From NCBI GenBank assembly GCA_024637295.1, contig JAGXFL010000010.1:1-32203 (forward strand): DNA of 32,203 nt, given 5' to 3'. The position numbers and the translations under genes were made by a program. Each line of letters opens with the position of its first letter. Within the stretch, counting starts at the first letter, position 1. Positions 5,545 to 24,052 of the stretch are shown in pieces. The notes under the pieces are model-generated. The model had not been told where the DNA came from and searched no databases. It worked only from the letters and a program-made list of their open reading frames with translations. Origin of the DNA: Sulfuricurvum sp. (GTDB lineage Bacteria > Campylobacterota > Campylobacteria > Campylobacterales > Sulfurimonadaceae).

Positions 5545-5796
5545 CTACGCGCAATGAGACAAAACAAGTTCGTGTTTTAGCTTGTAGTCAATAATCCCTT
5601 CCAATGATATATCTTCATCTATATCATCGAAGTGGATACCTCGTCCCCCACCGATAAGATGGTAATTTACGAGTTCCGACACACTACTTTGTTCGATGCG
5701 TTTGGTGTAAGAATACGGCAGACTTAAAACATCACCGCTATCAAGATGGACTAAAATTTTAGTATCCAGTTCAATCTTACTGATTAAAGTATTCAT
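5545..5796 (-). CDS. DUF2442 domain protein
   Basis: An 83-residue protein of the DUF2442 type. It begins MNTLISKIELDTKILVHLDSG, with the family's short beta-rich fold in which the gene product describes its own length of strand-turn-strand (LDSGDVLSLPYSYTKRIEQ) and ends with an ISLEGIIDYKL segment. A longer reading frame starts at 5832, but the ATG at 5796 has GGAGGC about 6 nt upstream, so I chose it. It then overlaps the upstream DUF4160 gene by 20 bp. DUF4160 and DUF2442 genes are very often adjacent and are sometimes suggested to form toxin-antitoxin-like pairs. That role is unproven. Confidence 0.8.
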   Translation of the reverse strand: MNTLISKIELDTKILVHLDSGDVLSLPYSYTKRIEQSSVSELVNYHLIGGGRGIHFDDIDEDISLEGIIDYKLKHELVLSHCA

Positions 5797-16352: not shown

Positions 16353-17116
16353 AACCACTCTTGCAATTGTTTTATTGATTTATAGGCGCTCATATCCAGT
16401 TTGATCGGAGTCAGTGACACCATCCCCTGCTCGATGGCTTCAAAATCACACAATCCGCTTCGGTTATTGCGCGGTTTAAAATCAAGAGGATGGAGTCCTA
16501 GCCAATAGTACTCCATACCTCTAGGATTTCGATGCAAGTGAGCATCGTTGCCATAGTGGCGATATCCCGCATAGGTAACTGAAAATTTTAACTCGCTTGC
16601 ATCATACGGAACGTTGATATTGATAAACTCACGCTCTTGCAAGGGAAAATTTCCAGCAAAGATTTTCTCGACAATCGTACGAATCGCCTTTTGAGCCAAT
16701 GCATAATCACCTTCAGGCTGTGTAAAATCCATCACTTGAGAAATAGCGATTGAAGGGACACCTTGCAATACCGCTTCCATAGCACCCGCGGCGGTGCCTG
16801 AATAAGTGATGTCCTCACCCATATTCGATCCCTTGTTGATCCCGCTGATCACGAGATCAGGCTTATTATCTTCAAACATCGAGTGCAAAGCCAAGTAGAC
16901 ACAATCGCTAGGTGTTCCATCGTCAAGTTTAAAAAAATCATCTCCAACACTGACAAAACTCAATGGCCGTGTAAGGGTGAGTGAATGACCGCAAGCTGAT
17001 TTTTCAGTAGATGGGGCAACCACTGTGATGTGTGCCAGATCCTTGATTGCATCTATCAATGCCAACAGTCCCTGAGACTCGTATCCATCATCATTTGTTA
17101 TTAATATTTTTTTCAT
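16349..17116 (-). CDS. surE: 5'/3'-nucleotidase SurE
   Basis: A 255-residue SurE, a metal-dependent phosphatase acting on nucleoside monophosphates, linked to survival in stationary phase. The start ILITNDDGYESQGL holds the metal-binding Asp9 and Asp10. The motifs APSTEKSACGHSLTL, DGTPSDCVYLAL and VISGINKGSNMGEDITYSGTA are hallmark SurE sequences, and the length fits. The ATG shares a base with the kinase stop (TAATG), so translation is coupled to the two-component genes. The 3' end overlaps the TcdA-like gene by 4 bp. Confidence 0.97.
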   Translation of the reverse strand: MKKILITNDDGYESQGLLALIDAIKDLAHITVVAPSTEKSACGHSLTLTRPLSFVSVGDDFFKLDDGTPSDCVYLALHSMFEDNKPDLVISGINKGSNMGEDITYSGTAAGAMEAVLQGVPSIAISQVMDFTQPEGDYALAQKAIRTIVEKIFAGNFPLQEREFININVPYDASELKFSVTYAGYRHYGNDAHLHRNPRGMEYYWLGLHPLDFKPRNNRSGLCDFEAIEQGMVSLTPIKLDMSAYKSIKQLQEWL

Positions 17117-18432
17117 TAATGTACTTTTCCTCGTAAATTTATTCGTTTGTTTGGGATAAATAAAAAACAGTTATCCCCTTCTCTTCGTTCATAGGCCAAA
17201 CAGTAATTGTGCTCTATTAAGATTGCATTTACAATGTATAAACCCAGTCCAAAGCTGTCTTTTGTCGGATGATCTTTCGTAAAAGGTTCTACATAGTAAG
17301 ACAATGGTTTTTGAAGCGCGTGCCCTTGATTGATAAAAACGATCATATCCTCTTCCATATGGATAGACATCGAATGGGTCGGTGAGTATTTAACTGCGTT
17401 GTCGATCATATTTTTAATGGCGGTTGCAAAAAGTCTGAAATTGGCTTCAATCATCACCGAACCTTCTACATTACGATCAACCCAATCAGACTCGACCATC
17501 GCCATATCAACGGCTTCATCAATAAGATCCACTAAACGAAATGCCGTCTTTTTCTCTAATGACTGGGATCCTGAGCTTACCTCTTCAATAAGTGCAAATT
17601 CATTTATAAGCCCCTCAAGACGCTCAAAAATACTTACAAAACGGGCGTGCTGCTTAGGATCAGTGATCATCGTTGTCACAATACGTCCTTTTGCAATCGG
17701 TGTTTTGAGTTCATGCATAATATTACGTAAGAAAAGGGTACGAGAATCCATCAATGCACGGATTTTCTTTTGCGTCATTTCCAATTCATTCGCGATAAGG
17801 GCAATCTCATCTTCCCCATTCATATGAAAAATCACTCCCATATTTCCCTCACCAAACGAGGCGATTTGACGACGAAGACGACGAAGCGGAGAAAGACGGT
17901 GGATGATCAAACCAAAAGCCAACAGCAATATGGTTAAAATCGTAGCATACGAATACAGCAAATTCCAAGGGCTGTACGGCTGACTGCTACGATCTTCCAA
18001 AAGAATCGGATAATGCGCGGACTGAATCCAAAAATAGATTTTTCCCTGATATTTCAGCATACTGGCATGAATATGATTCACAATGAGACTTTGATACGGT
18101 GCTTGGGGAGAAGGTTGACGACGCATTTCAATCGCAGAAACACCATTTTCTTTCAGTACTGCCCCATTGTCAATAATTGTGCGATACTCAACTTCACGTT
18201 CTATGGGATACAAATCATATATGGCTAAATTGGTTTCAAAAACAGGTAAAGAAATTTGCTTGAGCAGAAAAGTATGATAGATTTGAGAGATCAATGCGTA
18301 TTTGCCAAACATATTGTCATTATGCTTGGTCAGATTCGTTTGATAAAGCTGATAGAATGTATAACTGACACTCGACACAGTAACAATCAAGGCAAACAGT
18401 ATCGTTAAAAATACACCGTTTCGTTGCAGCAT
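17116..18432 (-). CDS. ArsS-type sensor histidine kinase
   Basis: A 438-residue membrane histidine kinase. An N-terminal membrane helix (about residues 8-30) and a second (about 157-178) enclose a periplasmic sensor domain. A HAMP-like linker leads to the phospho-acceptor His240 in LFLRNIMHELKTPIAKGR. The ATP-binding part has the N box NMIDNAVKYSP and a G box in DSFGLGLYIVN. The His-box context is the one I know from ArsS of Helicobacter and relatives, which senses acid; here the signal is unknown. It starts immediately after the stop of its response regulator and overlaps surE by one base. Confidence 0.93.
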   Translation of the reverse strand: MLQRNGVFLTILFALIVTVSSVSYTFYQLYQTNLTKHNDNMFGKYALISQIYHTFLLKQISLPVFETNLAIYDLYPIEREVEYRTIIDNGAVLKENGVSAIEMRRQPSPQAPYQSLIVNHIHASMLKYQGKIYFWIQSAHYPILLEDRSSQPYSPWNLLYSYATILTILLLAFGLIIHRLSPLRRLRRQIASFGEGNMGVIFHMNGEDEIALIANELEMTQKKIRALMDSRTLFLRNIMHELKTPIAKGRIVTTMITDPKQHARFVSIFERLEGLINEFALIEEVSSGSQSLEKKTAFRLVDLIDEAVDMAMVESDWVDRNVEGSVMIEANFRLFATAIKNMIDNAVKYSPTHSMSIHMEEDMIVFINQGHALQKPLSYYVEPFTKDHPTKDSFGLGLYIVNAILIEHNYCLAYERREGDNCFLFIPNKRINLRGKVH

Positions 18433-19095
18433 TTACTTCAGTAACTTATAGCCGATACCACGAATCGACTCTATGAGATTTTTATCCCCGATTTTATTAC
18501 GGATACGTCCCATCATGACATCAATACTTTTGTTTGAAGAGTCTTCGTTAATCGCACTTACATTGTGTATCAAGTCTTCTCTGGAGACAACCATCCCTTG
18601 CTTTTTGATCATGTGACCTAAAATCCCATACTCGGCATTGGTCAAATCTAAGGGCCGCCCTTTGTAACTGATCTGCATAGCAGACTCGTTGAGTTTAAAA
18701 TCACTTTGAGACTCTGCCGCCAATGCGACAATAGCATCGTAACGGCGTAATACTGAGTGTAAACGCGCTTCAAGCTCTCTTGGGTCATATGGCTTAGGAA
18801 GATAATCATCCGCCCCAAGTTCAAGGGCATTGATCTTGTCCGTCACATCCGATCGTGCCGATGAGATTATAATAGGGATATTTTGGCGCTCACGTATCGC
18901 TTTGCACACTTCCAATCCATCCATCCCCGGCAATGTCAAATCCAAAATAACCGCGTCAAATTTCTCCAATTTCAAGATACTCAACGCTTTAAACGGATCA
19001 TCTTCAACAGTTACTTTAAACCCGCACTGCTCTAGAAACTCACTCAATATCTCAGCTAGTTCAAGATCATCTTCAATCATTAATAATGTATTCAT
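18433..19095 (-). CDS. OmpR-family response regulator (ArsR-like)
   Basis: A 220-residue transcription factor with a receiver domain and an OmpR/PhoB winged-helix DNA-binding domain. In the receiver the acidic pocket is Glu8-Asp9, the phosphorylation site is Asp52 (VILDLTLPGMDG) and the conserved Lys is Lys101 (YLPKPYDP). The C-terminal domain shows LTNAEYGILGHMIKKQG and the recognition part NKSIDVMMGRIRNKIGD, ending IRGIGYKLL. It adjoins the kinase gene with no gap, so the two form one system. Similar pairs in the phylum are called ArsRS. It lies 34 bp after feoB; read-through from the iron operon is possible. Confidence 0.95.
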   Translation of the reverse strand: MNTLLMIEDDLELAEILSEFLEQCGFKVTVEDDPFKALSILKLEKFDAVILDLTLPGMDGLEVCKAIRERQNIPIIISSARSDVTDKINALELGADDYLPKPYDPRELEARLHSVLRRYDAIVALAAESQSDFKLNESAMQISYKGRPLDLTNAEYGILGHMIKKQGMVVSREDLIHNVSAINEDSSNKSIDVMMGRIRNKIGDKNLIESIRGIGYKLLK

Positions 19096-19129: not shown

Positions 19130-21241
19130 CTAACCGATCCACAGCGTGAAGTGATACGCAATAAATGCGAGCGAATAGGCGACAATCGTCGTAAAGGTAA
19201 ACAAGTACCCAAAATATTTAATCCCGCCCGCTTCACGGGTAAAAACAACCGATGCCGCCAAACAAGGTAAATAAGTCATGATCACCACGATAAACGCCAC
19301 TGCTGAGGGGAAAGGGATATGATCGTGAATAGCATTTACAAGTGAATTACTCTGCTCATTTGCATCGGATCCCAATGAGTACAACACGCTCATCGTTGAT
19401 ACAACGACCTCTTTTGCCGCCAATCCCGTTTGTAATGCGACTGCCATTTTCCAATCAAATCCCAATGGAATAAAAAGTGGTTCTATTGTATGCCCGATTT
19501 GCCCTAAAAAACTTGCAGAAAGCTGTTCTTCGGCAAGCTTGTTTTCGAGTTGCTTGACTTGTATTTCTGAAGTTGCAGCCTCGATTTTAGTAGCAAAACT
19601 CGTTGCTAATTCTGTATTTTTCGGATAGGTGCTCAAAAACCATACCAATAATGATGCCGCGGCGATAAAGGTTCCCGCTTTTTTCAAATACATCATCGTT
19701 TTGGTCAAAACTGTATGCCAGATCAATTTTAACGACGGTAATCTGTATTTTGGCATCTCCATAACAAACGGTTCATCGGCACCTTTGAACGCTGTCATCT
19801 TCAACACTTTTGCTGCAATTAGACCAATAATCGCCCCCAGTATATAAATCCCAAACAGTATGTTTCCAGCCATTGCAGGTCCAAAAAATGCACCCGTAAA
19901 AAGAACATACACCGGTAAACGAGCCCCACAGCTCATAAATCCGATAACAAACAGAGTTAGCAATCGATCACGATCATTTTTCAAAATACGCGCTGACATA
20001 TACGCAGGGATAGAACATCCAAAACCGCTTACTAACGGGATAAACGACTGGCCGTGAAGACCAAATTTATGGAAAAATCCATCAAGTAAAAAAGCAACGC
20101 GCGACATGTACCCCGTCGATTCCAATAATGCGATACCGACAAATAAAATGACAATATTAGGGACAAATAAGATAACAGCACCTACCCCTGAGATCACCCC
20201 ATCTACAATCAGTGATCGTATTTCTTCATTGCCAATAGTAGCACCGACTGTCTCTCCAAGCCATCCAAAAAATACATTTATCAAATCCATCGGAATCGAA
20301 CCGATTTCAAATGTGAGTTGAAACAGTCCCCACATAAAAAAGAGAAAAATCGGAATTCCAAAAAACGGATGGATCAATACCGAATCAATTTTTTCGGTTA
20401 ATGTTTTTTTACTCTGTGCCGTGATATTTGTCTTAACGGTTTCCGCAAGGATCCCTCGATTGAAAGCACGATATTCTTCTGCAAAAGCCTCTTTCATATC
20501 ATCCGTATCGTGATGCAATAAAACGTGATGATCTGCTTCGATAAGTATCGGTTGCAATTCAATCCATAAGGGATTATCGTGCAGTACACGATAGGTCTTG
20601 GTCTCTTTTTGGAGAAGATTGATCGCGATATTACGGTTGCTGATCGCCGCAGTAAAACGATGACGGTTGAGATAGTTTTCAATGAGGCCAATCTCCTCTT
20701 CCACTGCTTCGCTGAAAATCAGTTTTTGCTCCTGTACCGGTTCATTAATCACTTCGATAACCGATTGTATCAGCTCATCAAGCCCGGACTTAGCAACTGC
20801 TGAAACGCTGACACACGGAATACCTAGAAGCTGTGACAGATACCCAGCATTGATTACGATCCCTTCTTTGTCTGCTTCGTCACTCATATTGAGTGCCAAT
20901 ACCATTTTTTTGCTCATCGTCATCAGTTCTGCTGTGAGCTGAAGATTTTTTTCCATATTCGTAGAATCGAGGACATTGATGATGATGTCGTACGGTTCAT
21001 TGATCAAAAATTCATGGGTAACACGCTCTTCAATCGAATAATCGGTAAATGCATAGGTCCCCGGTAAATCGATGATTTTAAAATCGTATCCGTCTATTTC
21101 AAACGAGACTTGTGTTTTTTCAACCGTGACACCGGTGAAGTTCCCCACATGCAGTCGCGCGCCAGAAATTGAGTTTATGAGCATACTTTTACCCACATTA
21201 GGCTGTCCTACGAGGGCAATAGTGATTTGCTTAGCGGACAT
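19130..21241 (-). CDS. feoB: Ferrous iron transporter FeoB
   Basis: FeoB is the inner-membrane GTPase that imports Fe(II). The 703-residue protein starts with a G domain: GQPNVGKS (12-19, G1), GVTVEK (G2), DLPGTYAF (G3) and ALNMSDEA (G4). A helical regulator follows. The membrane part begins at about residue 280 and includes the two gate motifs, with conserved Cys in SGFGCSIPAYMSARI and in FMSCGARLPVYVLF. A later conserved segment reads LAAKEVVVSTMSVLY. The ATG overlaps feoA by 11 bp. The length is slightly below E. coli FeoB (773 residues), as is common outside enterics. Confidence 0.97.
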   Translation of the reverse strand: MSAKQITIALVGQPNVGKSMLINSISGARLHVGNFTGVTVEKTQVSFEIDGYDFKIIDLPGTYAFTDYSIEERVTHEFLINEPYDIIINVLDSTNMEKNLQLTAELMTMSKKMVLALNMSDEADKEGIVINAGYLSQLLGIPCVSVSAVAKSGLDELIQSVIEVINEPVQEQKLIFSEAVEEEIGLIENYLNRHRFTAAISNRNIAINLLQKETKTYRVLHDNPLWIELQPILIEADHHVLLHHDTDDMKEAFAEEYRAFNRGILAETVKTNITAQSKKTLTEKIDSVLIHPFFGIPIFLFFMWGLFQLTFEIGSIPMDLINVFFGWLGETVGATIGNEEIRSLIVDGVISGVGAVILFVPNIVILFVGIALLESTGYMSRVAFLLDGFFHKFGLHGQSFIPLVSGFGCSIPAYMSARILKNDRDRLLTLFVIGFMSCGARLPVYVLFTGAFFGPAMAGNILFGIYILGAIIGLIAAKVLKMTAFKGADEPFVMEMPKYRLPSLKLIWHTVLTKTMMYLKKAGTFIAAASLLVWFLSTYPKNTELATSFATKIEAATSEIQVKQLENKLAEEQLSASFLGQIGHTIEPLFIPLGFDWKMAVALQTGLAAKEVVVSTMSVLYSLGSDANEQSNSLVNAIHDHIPFPSAVAFIVVIMTYLPCLAASVVFTREAGGIKYFGYLFTFTTIVAYSLAFIAYHFTLWIG

Positions 21242-21479
21242 TACAGACCTCGATCAATGCTGCTTCTTCTTTGCGAAGTGCAATGTTCAAAGTTCCCACT
21301 TTTACCTCAAAGGTGCTTTTCGTAGGTGAACATTCCATCATGACCAAATCTACTCCACGCATCAGCCCAAAAGAGACTAAACGCTGCTTGAGAGGCCCCG
21401 TAGCATTTATTTTACAGACCGTTGCCATCCCGCCTTTGGTACAGGCACTCAGCAAAGTCATGGTGGATTTTTCACTCAT
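21231..21479 (-). CDS. feoA: Ferrous iron transport protein FeoA
   Basis: An 82-residue SH3-like protein that works with FeoB at the cytoplasmic face. The core sequence GPLKQRLVSFGLMRGVDLVMM matches the FeoA hallmark (a basic residue, L-x-x-x-G-(L/F)-x-x-G), and IALRKEEAALIEV forms the typical end. Cys14 and Cys21 near the N-terminus are unusual extras. AAGGAAG lies just before the ATG. The gene follows the porin stop by 15 bp and overlaps feoB, so all three are expected to be one transcript under the Fur boxes upstream of the porin. Confidence 0.93.
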   Translation of the reverse strand: MSEKSTMTLLSACTKGGMATVCKINATGPLKQRLVSFGLMRGVDLVMMECSPTKSTFEVKVGTLNIALRKEEAALIEVCNVR

Positions 21480-21494
21480 TGTCTTCCTTATGTA

Positions 21495-22712
21495 TTAAAA
21501 GCGATAGTGCAAACGTGCTAAAAAGCGATCATATCCTGCATCGCCCCCACTTCCATCTGCGTTATCATACTTGTCATTTAACTTTGCGTAACTGACATCC
21601 AGACTCATCACTTCACTGTGCGTATACGTTGCGATTACATCCAACTCAGTCATTTTAGTAGCAGCAGGAGCACTTTTAAACTCCCCATACAATGTCGTAA
21701 TACTCAAATCTTTGATTCCCACATCCGTCATATCCACAACTGCCTTATATTGATAGGCTTTGGCATCTTCAATTCCCATGATCGTCCACTCCTCCATTGA
21801 GGTATAGTAAGCTCCTCCACCAAGCCCAAGATCCAATGATTTTCCCTCTTTATTCGATACGGCATTGTATGCTGCACCTAGTGTGAGCATCTTCCATTGC
21901 CCATTCAAAGCTAACCCATAGATATGTCCATCCGTACCGGATAAGGTTCCGTCTGCTTTCCTATCTTCATTAATATTCGCATACTGTCCCATAAAAGTGA
22001 ATCCCAATGCATCCGTAGCCTTCACGTTGTAACTGGCATCGGTATAAAACGTGTCTGCTTTTTTATCAATTGAATAAAACCACCCTTGTACCATTAAGTC
22101 ATCAATGCTTTCATTGATAACACCAAACAGTGCTTCACCGTGACTCTCTTCTGCCACTTTTTTAAACTTCGAAATATCAGCACCTGAATCATATCCTGCC
22201 CAACGTTTGATATATCCTGCGGTTAGGGTTGTTTTATCAATACCGCTGTAAGTTGCCAATGCCGCCTCGTATCCATCTGGAAGCATACGAATGTCATCCG
22301 TATTGACCAATGGGGTATCGATGAGTTGACGACCAACACGCACATTTAGATCATTTGCATTGTAATCCACATACGCTTCTCCGACATAGACAAATGAATT
22401 CGCATTTTCACCTAAAAAATCAAGATCACTTTTATCCTCAAAACGTGATCCCGTTGCAAAAGGGAACTTTTGAACACCATAACCTGCAACACCCAGCTTT
22501 AACCCATTCCATGCCGGTGTTTCGTATTTCAAAATACCGCCAAGAGCTGTCGTATATCTATGAGGCCCAACAGCATTATCCTGATCCACATACCCTAATC
22601 GGACCAATCCACTCACAGTTCCCTTATCCTCAGGAATAACACTCCCTACAAGTGCCAATTGTGTACTGGCAACCAAACTCATTATAATAACTTTACTTTT
22701 TGAACTCATCAT
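21495..22712 (-). CDS. OprD-like outer membrane porin
   Basis: A 405-residue outer-membrane beta-barrel protein. The N-terminal signal peptide runs to about residue 24 (KVIIMSLVASTQLALVGS). The mature part has alternating short amphipathic strands and ends in Phe (LARLHYRF), as needed for barrel assembly. The segment VNTDDIRMLPDGYEAALATYSG and the RVGRQLIDTPLVN before it match OprD-type porins of Campylobacterota. Substrate cannot be read from sequence. The gene leads the feoAB transcript behind two Fur-like boxes, so a role in passage of iron or an iron-related solute is plausible. Two ATGs stand in a row; the second (22709) has the better spacing to GGGAG. Confidence 0.87.
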   Translation of the reverse strand: MMSSKSKVIIMSLVASTQLALVGSVIPEDKGTVSGLVRLGYVDQDNAVGPHRYTTALGGILKYETPAWNGLKLGVAGYGVQKFPFATGSRFEDKSDLDFLGENANSFVYVGEAYVDYNANDLNVRVGRQLIDTPLVNTDDIRMLPDGYEAALATYSGIDKTTLTAGYIKRWAGYDSGADISKFKKVAEESHGEALFGVINESIDDLMVQGWFYSIDKKADTFYTDASYNVKATDALGFTFMGQYANINEDRKADGTLSGTDGHIYGLALNGQWKMLTLGAAYNAVSNKEGKSLDLGLGGGAYYTSMEEWTIMGIEDAKAYQYKAVVDMTDVGIKDLSITTLYGEFKSAPAATKMTELDVIATYTHSEVMSLDVSYAKLNDKYDNADGSGGDAGYDRFLARLHYRF

Positions 22713-22736
22713 GCTCCCGATCCTATGATTATAAAA

Positions 22737-22751
22737 TGATACCTATTATCA
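22737..22751. promoter_or_regulatory. Fur-box-like palindrome, porin-proximal
   Basis: TGATACCTATTATCA: arms TGATA and TATCA are perfect inverted repeats. Compared with the 7-1-7 Fur motif TGATAAT-N-ATTATCA it differs at two positions in the left half. It is 4 bp from a minus-strand TATAAT (22733-22728), the likely -10 of the porin-feoAB promoter, where binding would block RNA polymerase. Confidence 0.65.
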
Positions 22752-22773
22752 ACTTAGTCCATTCTTAACTATT

Positions 22774-22788
22774 TGATAATACTTATCA
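22774..22788. promoter_or_regulatory. Fur-box-like palindrome, distal
   Basis: TGATAATACTTATCA differs from the 7-1-7 Fur motif TGATAAT-N-ATTATCA at one position only. Its centre is 37 bp from the centre of the first box. It lies between the porin-feoAB promoter and the divergent phosphatidyltransferase promoter, and could affect both. Confidence 0.72.
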
Positions 22789-22860: not shown

Positions 22861-23409
22861 ATGAACTTTTTATACAAATCAACCAGTCACTTTAATCTTG
22901 CAAACCTTTTTACAATGGTCAACATCACCTGCGGCTTACTAGCAACTTATTTTATCACACAAAATCAATTTATTCTTGCAATTGTCCTCGCATGGATAGG
23001 GGGAGCATTTGATATCTTTGATGGAAAAATCGCTCGAAAGTTTGGACTTTCCAATGAATTTGGAGTACAACTTGACTCTTTTGCTGACTTTTTATCGTTT
23101 GTACTGGTACCCACTTTCTTGATTTTTCAAGCCGTATATTCGACTTTGGAAGGAGTTTCATTAATAGTAGTTGCTGTTGGATCGATTTACTATGTCATCA
23201 GCGGTCTTCGACGACTCATTCAGTTTAATATCAATACTGATGCAGGGGAAGTTAGCAAATATTTTACCGGTGTACCCACCCCACTTGGAGCGATTCTGCT
23301 ATGGGTTGTCTATCTTGCGTCACCGTTGATCACGTGGGTGGGAGTTTTGGTTTTTATGATCATTATCGGGGCATTGCTCAATTCGAAAGTAAAAATTCCT
23401 CATCTGTAA
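22861..23409 (+). CDS. pssA: CDP-alcohol phosphatidyltransferase, phosphatidylserine-synthase-like
   Basis: A 182-residue integral membrane enzyme that transfers a phosphatidyl group from CDP-diacylglycerol to an alcohol. The full family signature D-G-x2-A-R-x8-G-x3-D-x3-D is present at Asp54-Gly55, Ala58-Arg59, Gly68, Asp72 and Asp76. The N-terminal NLANLFTMVNITCGL and the later SGLRRLIQFN are most like phosphatidylserine synthases, which use serine on the way to phosphatidylethanolamine. At 182 residues it is shorter than the usual 230-250, so a second such gene elsewhere or another alcohol substrate is possible. Its last 10 codons and stop lie in the 40 bp direct repeat that bounds the toxin-antitoxin cassette. 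Confidence 0.85.
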   Translation: MNFLYKSTSHFNLANLFTMVNITCGLLATYFITQNQFILAIVLAWIGGAFDIFDGKIARKFGLSNEFGVQLDSFADFLSFVLVPTFLIFQAVYSTLEGVSLIVVAVGSIYYVISGLRRLIQFNINTDAGEVSKYFTGVPTPLGAILLWVVYLASPLITWVGVLVFMIIIGALLNSKVKIPHL

Positions 23410-23417
23410 TATTTTCT
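23378..23417 (+). repeat. Left copy of a perfect 40 bp direct repeat
   Basis: Forty bases starting TCAATTCGAAAGTAAAAATT and ending ATATTTTCT recur without mismatch at 24013-24052, 635 bp away. This copy encodes the C-terminus SKVKIPHL and stop of the phosphatidyltransferase. Its first three bases are also the complement of the rmuC stop codon. Bases on both outer sides differ between the copies. Confidence 0.95.
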
Positions 23418-23425
23418 TATTTTCC

Positions 23426-23454
23426 GTTCGTGGTGAGCTTGTCGAACCATGAAC
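23426..23454. repeat. REP-like palindrome
   Basis: GTTCGTGGT (23426-23434) pairs with ACCATGAAC (23446-23454) in nine base pairs, one of them G-T, around the core GAGCTTGTCGA. The core and arms closely resemble a REP-type dispersed palindrome (TTCGTCCTGAGCTTGTCGAA type) found in many bacterial genomes. Between two 3' ends it may also work as a bidirectional terminator. It lies 9 bp inside the left 40 bp repeat, so it came in with the cassette or entered it later. Confidence 0.65.
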
Positions 23455-23459
23455 TATGA

Positions 23460-23744
23460 TTACCCATACGCATTTTGACGATGTTTAAAATCGACCACGA
23501 TAATGATAACTTTCCCATCATCTATAAGATAAAAAAGACGATAATCACCGAGACGGTATCGGTAATACCCCTCAAACTCCCCTTTGAGCTTTTTGATATT
23601 CGTTCCATAGTAGGGATTTTGTTTCAATTGAGGATAGACGATATTGGTAATTTTCGTATACTGTTTTTTGTCGATACTTACTTTTATTTTTTCAAAGCTT
23701 TTCGTTTCAGCAATTGAAAACTCAGACAAACGTATATTCTCCAT
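23460..23744 (-). CDS. RelE/ParE-family toxin
   Basis: A 94-residue toxin of the RelE/ParE superfamily, expected to cut mRNA on the ribosome or to poison gyrase. The typical C-terminal core is present: IKKLKGEFEGYYRYRLGDYRLF, then YLIDDGKVIIIVVDFKHRQNAYG. The Arg residues in the YRYRLGDYRLFY strand and the final H-R-x-x-x-Y match RelE-type active sites better than ParE. I chose the ATG at 23744, which has GAAGAAG upstream; a TTG at 23759 is also open. It overlaps the antitoxin gene by 23 bp. It is part of the segment bounded by the 40 bp repeats. Confidence 0.9.
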   Translation of the reverse strand: MENIRLSEFSIAETKSFEKIKVSIDKKQYTKITNIVYPQLKQNPYYGTNIKKLKGEFEGYYRYRLGDYRLFYLIDDGKVIIIVVDFKHRQNAYG

Positions 23745-23958
23745 TTTTTGCTTCTTCAAAACCTTTTCTCAAATTTTGAACCAACTCTTTATCTCTCATA
23801 ATTTCAGCCATTTCCGTATTATCTACATATTGAGAAGAGGAAAGATATTGCAGTGTCGCAAACTCTATGAAGTTTGAAATATTTCTCCGTTCTCCAGAAG
23901 CTGCAAGAGAAATCATTTGATAAACCGAGTCATCCACCCTCATTGTTACTGTTTTCAT
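23722..23958 (-). CDS. Ribbon-helix-helix antitoxin
   Basis: A 78-residue partner of the RelE-like toxin. The N-terminus MKTVTMRVDDSVYQMISLAA forms the beta strand and first helix of a ribbon-helix-helix DNA-binding fold, and ERRNISNFIEFATLQYL gives the second helix. The charged C-terminus (EMAEIMRDKELVQNLRKGFEEAKNG) would wrap the toxin. AAAAAGGAGAT lies before the ATG. Three TATTCA repeats in 10 bp register upstream are a likely operator for self-repression. The antitoxin is transcribed first and the toxin start lies within its 3' end, the usual order. Confidence 0.9.
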   Translation of the reverse strand: MKTVTMRVDDSVYQMISLAASGERRNISNFIEFATLQYLSSSQYVDNTEMAEIMRDKELVQNLRKGFEEAKNGEYTFV

Positions 23959-24012: not shown

Positions 24013-24052
24013 TCAATTCGAAAGTAAAAATTCCTCATCTGTAATATTTTCT
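24013..24052 (+). repeat. Right copy of the perfect 40 bp direct repeat
   Basis: This copy is identical to 23378-23417. Read on the minus strand it encodes the C-terminus NITDEEFLLSN and stop of RmuC. The repeat begins exactly at the complement of the rmuC stop codon. With both copies, the phosphatidyltransferase and rmuC each retain a complete 3' end. Confidence 0.95.

Follow-up and report, generated by a model that had tools for sequence, protein, structure and literature searches.

The window analysed here is a 32,203-nucleotide stretch of contig JAGXFL010000010.1 from a Sulfuricurvum sp. assembly (GCA_024637295.1), and its subject is a gene for an OprD-family outer-membrane porin that leads feoA and feoB, together with two putative operators of the iron regulator Fur (Fur boxes). 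The host genome (G000) is Sulfuricurvum-like, comprises 2.17 Mb in 13 contigs and encodes two FUR-family genes, the stronger match lying at G000:C2:337415-337777; its nearest FeoB relatives in a search of named genomes were Sulfuricurvum records. Porin, feoA and feoB are consecutive open reading frames (ORFs) arranged head to tail, and both palindromes lie between the porin and a divergent pssA-like gene. Positions are those of the window.

21495..22712, minus strand: OprD-family outer-membrane porin, 405 amino acids (aa), predicted 18-strand barrel (PF03573 above cut-off; AlphaFold2 model; PDB matches to Occ channels)
21231..21479, minus strand: feoA (PF04023, 51.3 bits; cut-off 23)
19130..21241, minus strand: feoB (TIGR00437, 612 bits; cut-off 316)
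22774..22788, no strand: Fur box 1, TGATAATACTTATCA, one mismatch to the 7-1-7 motif TGATAATNATTATCA
22737..22751, no strand: Fur box 2, TGATACCTATTATCA, two mismatches to TGATAATNATTATCA
22861-23409, divergent from the porin: pssA-like (phosphatidylserine-synthase-like) gene

An earlier note, made from the letters alone, had read this locus as an OprD-like porin leading feoAB, and the Pfam scores and consecutive open genes confirm it. Its guess of Campylobacterota was also correct, the nearest FeoB loci being those of Sulfuricurvum. The porin scores 42.1 bits against OprD (PF03573; Pfam cut-off 25), and the FeoB_N, Gate and FeoB_C domains of the feoB product each score above their Pfam cut-offs. 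A 15-bp gap separates the porin from feoA, which shares 11 bp with feoB. Other porin families fit less well: the porin reached 52.2 bits against the Opr family porin model NF033923, below the NCBI cut-off of 150; OprB (PF04966) was absent from the matches up to an E-value of 1, which comprised OprD and, weakly, Campylo_MOMP; and assignment as a MOMP was rejected because Campylo_MOMP (PF05538) gave 21.7 bits, below its cut-off of 29.6.

Both palindromes have perfect TGATA/TATCA arms and one is a single base off the 7-1-7 motif, as the same note stated and a genome scan bore out. With TGATAATNATTATCA as query, the genome contained no site without mismatches and a single one-mismatch site, Fur box 1; among the two-mismatch sites returned elsewhere (15 loci, L113-L127), 14 of 15 fall within ORFs of ≥90 aa. 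The arm pattern TGATA-N5-TATCA occurs seven times in the 2.17-Mb genome versus three times for a reversed control, and two of these seven sites sit here, 37 bp apart. Dinucleotide shuffling of the 148-bp intergenic sequence, repeated 2000 times, produced one or more sites with ≤2 mismatches (the Fur-box criterion used in all surveys below) in 22 replicates and two sites in none. These putative operators match the Fur motif better than chance, and the motif counts and shuffles rule out chance A+T-rich palindromes. The holo-Fur consensus reported for Helicobacter pylori, TAATAAT-n-ATTATTA, likewise has a 7-1-7 layout (PMC9696931), and box 1 differs from it, by inspection, at three positions. Box 1 also overlaps a weak -10-like TATTAT (22781-22776, minus strand); promoter-like matches in the region are at chance level (14 versus 18.8 in shuffles), and the scan decides nothing on an internal promoter.

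Linkage of the porin to FeoAB

The FeoB search of named genomes yielded 80 relative loci, 39 of which have an intact porin directly upstream of feoA, while 24 have feoA with no porin ahead of it. The others comprise six loci with porin pieces, one cut by a contig end (L096), seven with too little upstream DNA and three without feoA. Three of the six porin pieces lie at contig ends (L039, L059 and L087) and three are broken or remnant copies (L041, L082 and L103). A pssA-like gene directly adjoins feoA, with no porin between, in 19 loci, suggesting that the porin acts as a present-or-absent cassette. We note that three porin-less loci (L055, L062 and L076) have a gene of 1026-1027 aa ahead of feoA, which in L055 encodes an AcrB-type efflux pump.

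Across the order, 149 genomes were sampled, with a porin match in 81 and FeoB in 133. Linkage was scored by coordinates as porin and FeoB on the same strand within 1.5 kb, using the first 100 porin matches and the FeoB matches of porin-match genomes, so adjacency counts are lower bounds. At least 33 genomes have such a pair by coordinates, and loci L006 and L015 add genomes G038 and G130. The survey of porin-feoAB neighbours in Campylobacterota that the earlier note had proposed is thus positive, with a porin beside feoAB in at least 35 of 149 genomes. Of the 17 families in which a porin match occurred, the linked genomes represent at least 10; by a simple estimate, about 0.17 linked cases would be expected by chance among the 100 porin matches. 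Among the matches listed, the linked porin is its own genome's best match in 29 of 33 cases, and two gene orders occur, porin-feoA-feoB and feoB-feoA-porin, the porin standing last in 8 of 33. Linkage kept despite a changed gene order strongly indicates a shared task, and these genome comparisons support a functional link between porin and FeoAB.

The porin tree was midpoint-rooted after ORFs of <330 aa and a 69-aa fragment (L134) were dropped. The label 'linked, porin first' requires 7 changes on the tree versus a mean of 19.1 in shuffles, none of 500 being as low. Feo-linked porins are clustered yet mixed with unlinked members and do not form one clade; given the midpoint root, the placement of the porin group relative to paralogues says that it is separate and nothing more.

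Putative Fur boxes as a property of the porin

Of 36 testable loci, namely the window and 35 of the 39 intact-porin loci (in the remaining four the available upstream DNA is too short), 33 have a Fur box ahead of the porin. The same holds for 13 of 14 porin-first loci from the order survey; the window is part of both counts. Porins of the same group located away from feoAB have a Fur box in 9 of 11 cases (L008, L011, L016, L019, L022, L024, L026, L029 and L030). No Fur box precedes any of seven other OprD-type porins (0/7), six of them full-ORF paralogues in the window genome and the seventh from L062; this control group is small and mostly from one genome. Since unlinked porins keep their boxes and other OprD-type porins do not have them, iron control appears to belong to the porin itself, and the Fur control of the porin that the earlier note had proposed is likely.

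These counts also bear on the idea that the boxes act solely on feoAB, or on the divergent pssA-like gene, with the porin placed between them by accident. Such an accident would fit the porin-less loci, which retain a Fur box before feoA in 17 of 24 cases, and the 19 loci with a pssA-like gene directly next to feoA. However, it is largely refuted by the boxes of porins away from feoAB; moreover, porin loci L058, L074, L077 and L085 keep boxes with no pssA-like gene alongside, and many loci have separate boxes before the porin and before feoA. We therefore regard an accidental placement as highly improbable. Service to the pssA-like gene only is ruled out by the locus survey and the box comparison across relatives.

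Whether porin and feoAB form one operon depends on the lineage. Behind an intact porin, feoA has its own Fur box in the stretch ahead of it in 23 of 39 loci. The porin-feoA gap of Sulfurimonas-type loci is mostly 44-113 bp and carries its own box. In 12 Sulfuricurvum-type loci (L031-L037, L043, L045, L047, L049 and L054) no Fur box lies between porin and feoA, and the gap, where measured, is ≤15 bp; the 15-bp gap of the window has no Fur box either. The predicted single-operon form is thus a Sulfuricurvum trait, the two being elsewhere mostly neighbours with separate Fur-boxed starts, so that the single operon described in the earlier note is supported here by an operon-like layout and does not extend to relatives generally. 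Porin-last operons have a Fur box before feoB in 5 of 7 and before the porin in 0 of 4 (L158 and L160, whose orientation relative to feoB was not set, are left out of the first count). Read from sequence as gene order, Fur-box quality, conservation, boxes tracking the porin and predicted fold, the porin-feoAB pairing and likely Fur control of the porin are well supported.

The channel and its possible cargo

The AlphaFold2 model of the porin is an 18-strand barrel (mean pLDDT 89.4, pTM 0.85). Among solved structures it most resembles Occ channels of Pseudomonas and Acinetobacter (Foldseek E-values as low as 3.6e-21; Z ~34-40), with Campylobacter jejuni MOMP ranking below them (Z 31). MOMP has the same strand number and an acidic eyelet facing arginines (PMC5090048); the window porin differs in falling under the Campylo_MOMP cut-off. 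Porins of the group are acidic, with net charges per 100 aa of -6.8 in linked (n=56) and -7.1 in unlinked members (n=11) versus -2.1 in others (n=7); the window porin itself has -5.0. Loop 130-146, which connects strands 5 and 6, is expected to be the eyelet loop L3; its charge is mostly -3 or -2 in the group versus -1 in others. D139 is conserved in 67/67 and D140 in 65/67 group porins. MOMP is reported to bind Ca2+ in its negatively charged eyelet opposite arginines (PMC5090048), and alignment sets its acidic L3 residues beside D139-D140. This is a lead rather than proof of a metal site like that of MOMP, which involves acidic residues of L3, L4 and L6 (Asp116/Asp120/Asp155/Glu288).

From this evidence, we consider it probable that the porin is a Fur-repressed outer-membrane channel supplying FeoAB with Fe(II) or a small iron complex. 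In the proposed mechanism, for which Fur binding, one transcript, substrate, specificity, and the direction and size of the effect are inferred, Fe-loaded Fur on both boxes would repress porin and feoAB together when iron is plentiful, and release of repression would allow both to be made when iron is low. The porin would let more Fe(II), or more of a small and loosely bound iron complex, cross the outer membrane; its acidic eyelet would prefer cations, and FeoAB would move periplasmic Fe(II) inward. More tentatively, and at clearly less than an even chance, we propose that this OprD-family group across Campylobacterales may be a true ferrous-iron channel, Fur-repressed and acidic, with a possibly metal-binding eyelet (D139-D140 opposite conserved arginines such as R38), serving as a specific outer-membrane gate for Feo.

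The fold bears on what the channel might carry. Occ channels, the nearest folds, have named substrates such as vanillate, benzoate, glucuronate, pyroglutamate and similar compounds, and entry of ferric quinate through MOMP, a related porin of C. jejuni, is reported (PMC9522878). Both are in keeping with passage of iron, ferric or ferrous, in a small complex (citrate-like or with another organic acid) rather than as bare Fe(II), the iron being freed or reduced in the periplasm before uptake by FeoAB. However, the eyelet and the whole protein are unusually acidic and so ill-suited to anionic complexes, and the substrate of FeoB is Fe(II); passage of a complex is unlikely in our estimation. An ordinary general-diffusion porin, induced in iron shortage to widen entry of all small solutes with iron as one passenger of many, is a serious contender that still falls short of an even chance. 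In E. coli, Fe(II) enters in this way through OmpC/OmpF (PMC7315122), FeoAB lacks a linked porin in the 24 porin-less loci, and the fold also resembles MOMP. General diffusion does not readily account for Fur boxes that track this porin group (9/11) and not other OprD-type porins (0/7), nor for a linkage to FeoAB that holds in both gene orders.

Several observations weigh against a specific, Fur-controlled iron channel. The 24 porin-less loci include those of the two FeoBs nearest to that of the window (L046 and L053; 90% and 89% identity). Broken or remnant porin copies precede feoA in L041 (4556-5763), L082 (5327-5691) and L103 (4460-5731), and L051, one of the porin-less loci, has a 60-aa remnant (5575-5754); these four are a sign of what appears to be repeated loss. 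Because FeoAB often occurs without it, the porin probably assists Feo or provides one route among several, and is not a fixed part of it. The 'dedicated' porin of the earlier note is thus supported as a functional link and less well supported as a needed part. Among the matches listed, 46 of the 81 porin-match genomes have no linked pair. Unlinked members L003 and L020 have no Fur box, and linked L012, L064, L078 and L094 have a weak one or none. In the host genome, no site with ≤2 mismatches was found at six TonB-type plug protein loci or at the two FUR-family gene loci, so that the genome offers no independent positive control for the motif. OpdL also has DD at the D139-D140 position, and OprD-family channels of named substrate are mostly carboxylate carriers. 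Finally, the general porin MOMP likewise has an acidic eyelet (PMC5090048), so acidity is no proof of iron.

The passage of ferrous iron across the outer membrane is usually ascribed to diffusion through general porins. To our knowledge, neither Francisella fupA nor the E. coli genes for OmpC and OmpF lie within a feo operon; FupA belongs to a protein family other than that of the window porin, and OmpC/OmpF differ as general 16-strand porins. The earlier note described this step as rarely assigned to a gene, which is fair, but precedents are reported for three systems. FupA is described as an outer-membrane protein with pore activity that imports ferrous iron ahead of FeoB (PMC7432831, PMC4905997), and E. 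coli OmpC/OmpF and FeoB as sharing one Fe(II) pathway, with OmpR also acting on feo (PMC7315122). For Geobacter sulfurreducens, Rodionov et al. (2004) predicted one operon of Fur box, OprB-type porin and feoAB, the order found in the window; among their Fur-box porins of Geobacter and Desulfuromonas, the psp porins are preceded by a tandem pair of Fur boxes, and a role in ferrous iron transport was proposed (PMC545781). These porins belong to the OprB family or weakly resemble PF07396 instead of OprD, and each comes from one to a few genomes. That a porin under Fur control feeds FeoAB was thus already suggested in print in 2004 for another porin family (PMC545781). Closer in family is an Acinetobacter baumannii OprD/OprQ-type porin tied to low-iron stress, the recombinant protein of which is reported to bind Fe2+ and Mg2+ partially (Catel-Ferreira 2012, as summarized in the review PMC7573547).

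A literature search returned no report of an OprD-family porin adjoining feoAB in Campylobacterota, a weak negative because subscription journals lie mostly outside its coverage. As far as this search shows, the novelty lies in a Campylobacterota group of OprD-family porins that is linked to FeoAB across the order and has Fur boxes of its own. A porin group that neighbours feoAB in two gene orders and at least ten families, and mostly keeps its boxes when alone, makes the outer-membrane iron step a testable gene and is a good candidate for this rarely identified gate. The named loci belong mostly to uncultured relatives of Sulfuricurvum and Sulfurimonas, sulfur oxidisers of Fe(II)-rich settings. 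If true, a specific ferrous-iron channel would replace the passive leakage via general porins that is usually assumed for Feo systems.

Neighbouring genes and a toxin module

Downstream of feoB on the minus strand lies a predicted two-gene regulatory pair, followed by surE and then a ThiF-family gene.

18433..19095, minus strand: OmpR-type response regulator, starting 34 bp behind feoB
17116..18432, minus strand: ArsS-family sensor histidine kinase (NF038389, 403 bits; NCBI cut-off 250)

Of 76 informative relative loci, 41 have a close match to the OmpR-type regulator ≤100 bp from feoB and 69 have one ≤5 kb away; in L027, the regulator/kinase pair is placed divergent from the porin instead. 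No known RNA family reached its gathering score in the window. Beyond the pssA-like gene, a perfect 40-bp direct repeat (23378-23417 and 24013-24052) flanks a ParE-type toxin gene (23460-23759, minus strand) and its 78-aa partner (23722-23958, minus strand). The module looks as if it had been inserted between two convergent genes, duplicating their common ends. The stretch holding it also contains a REP-like short sequence, GTGGTGAGCTTGTCGAACCAT (23430-23450), present as a single copy in the window.

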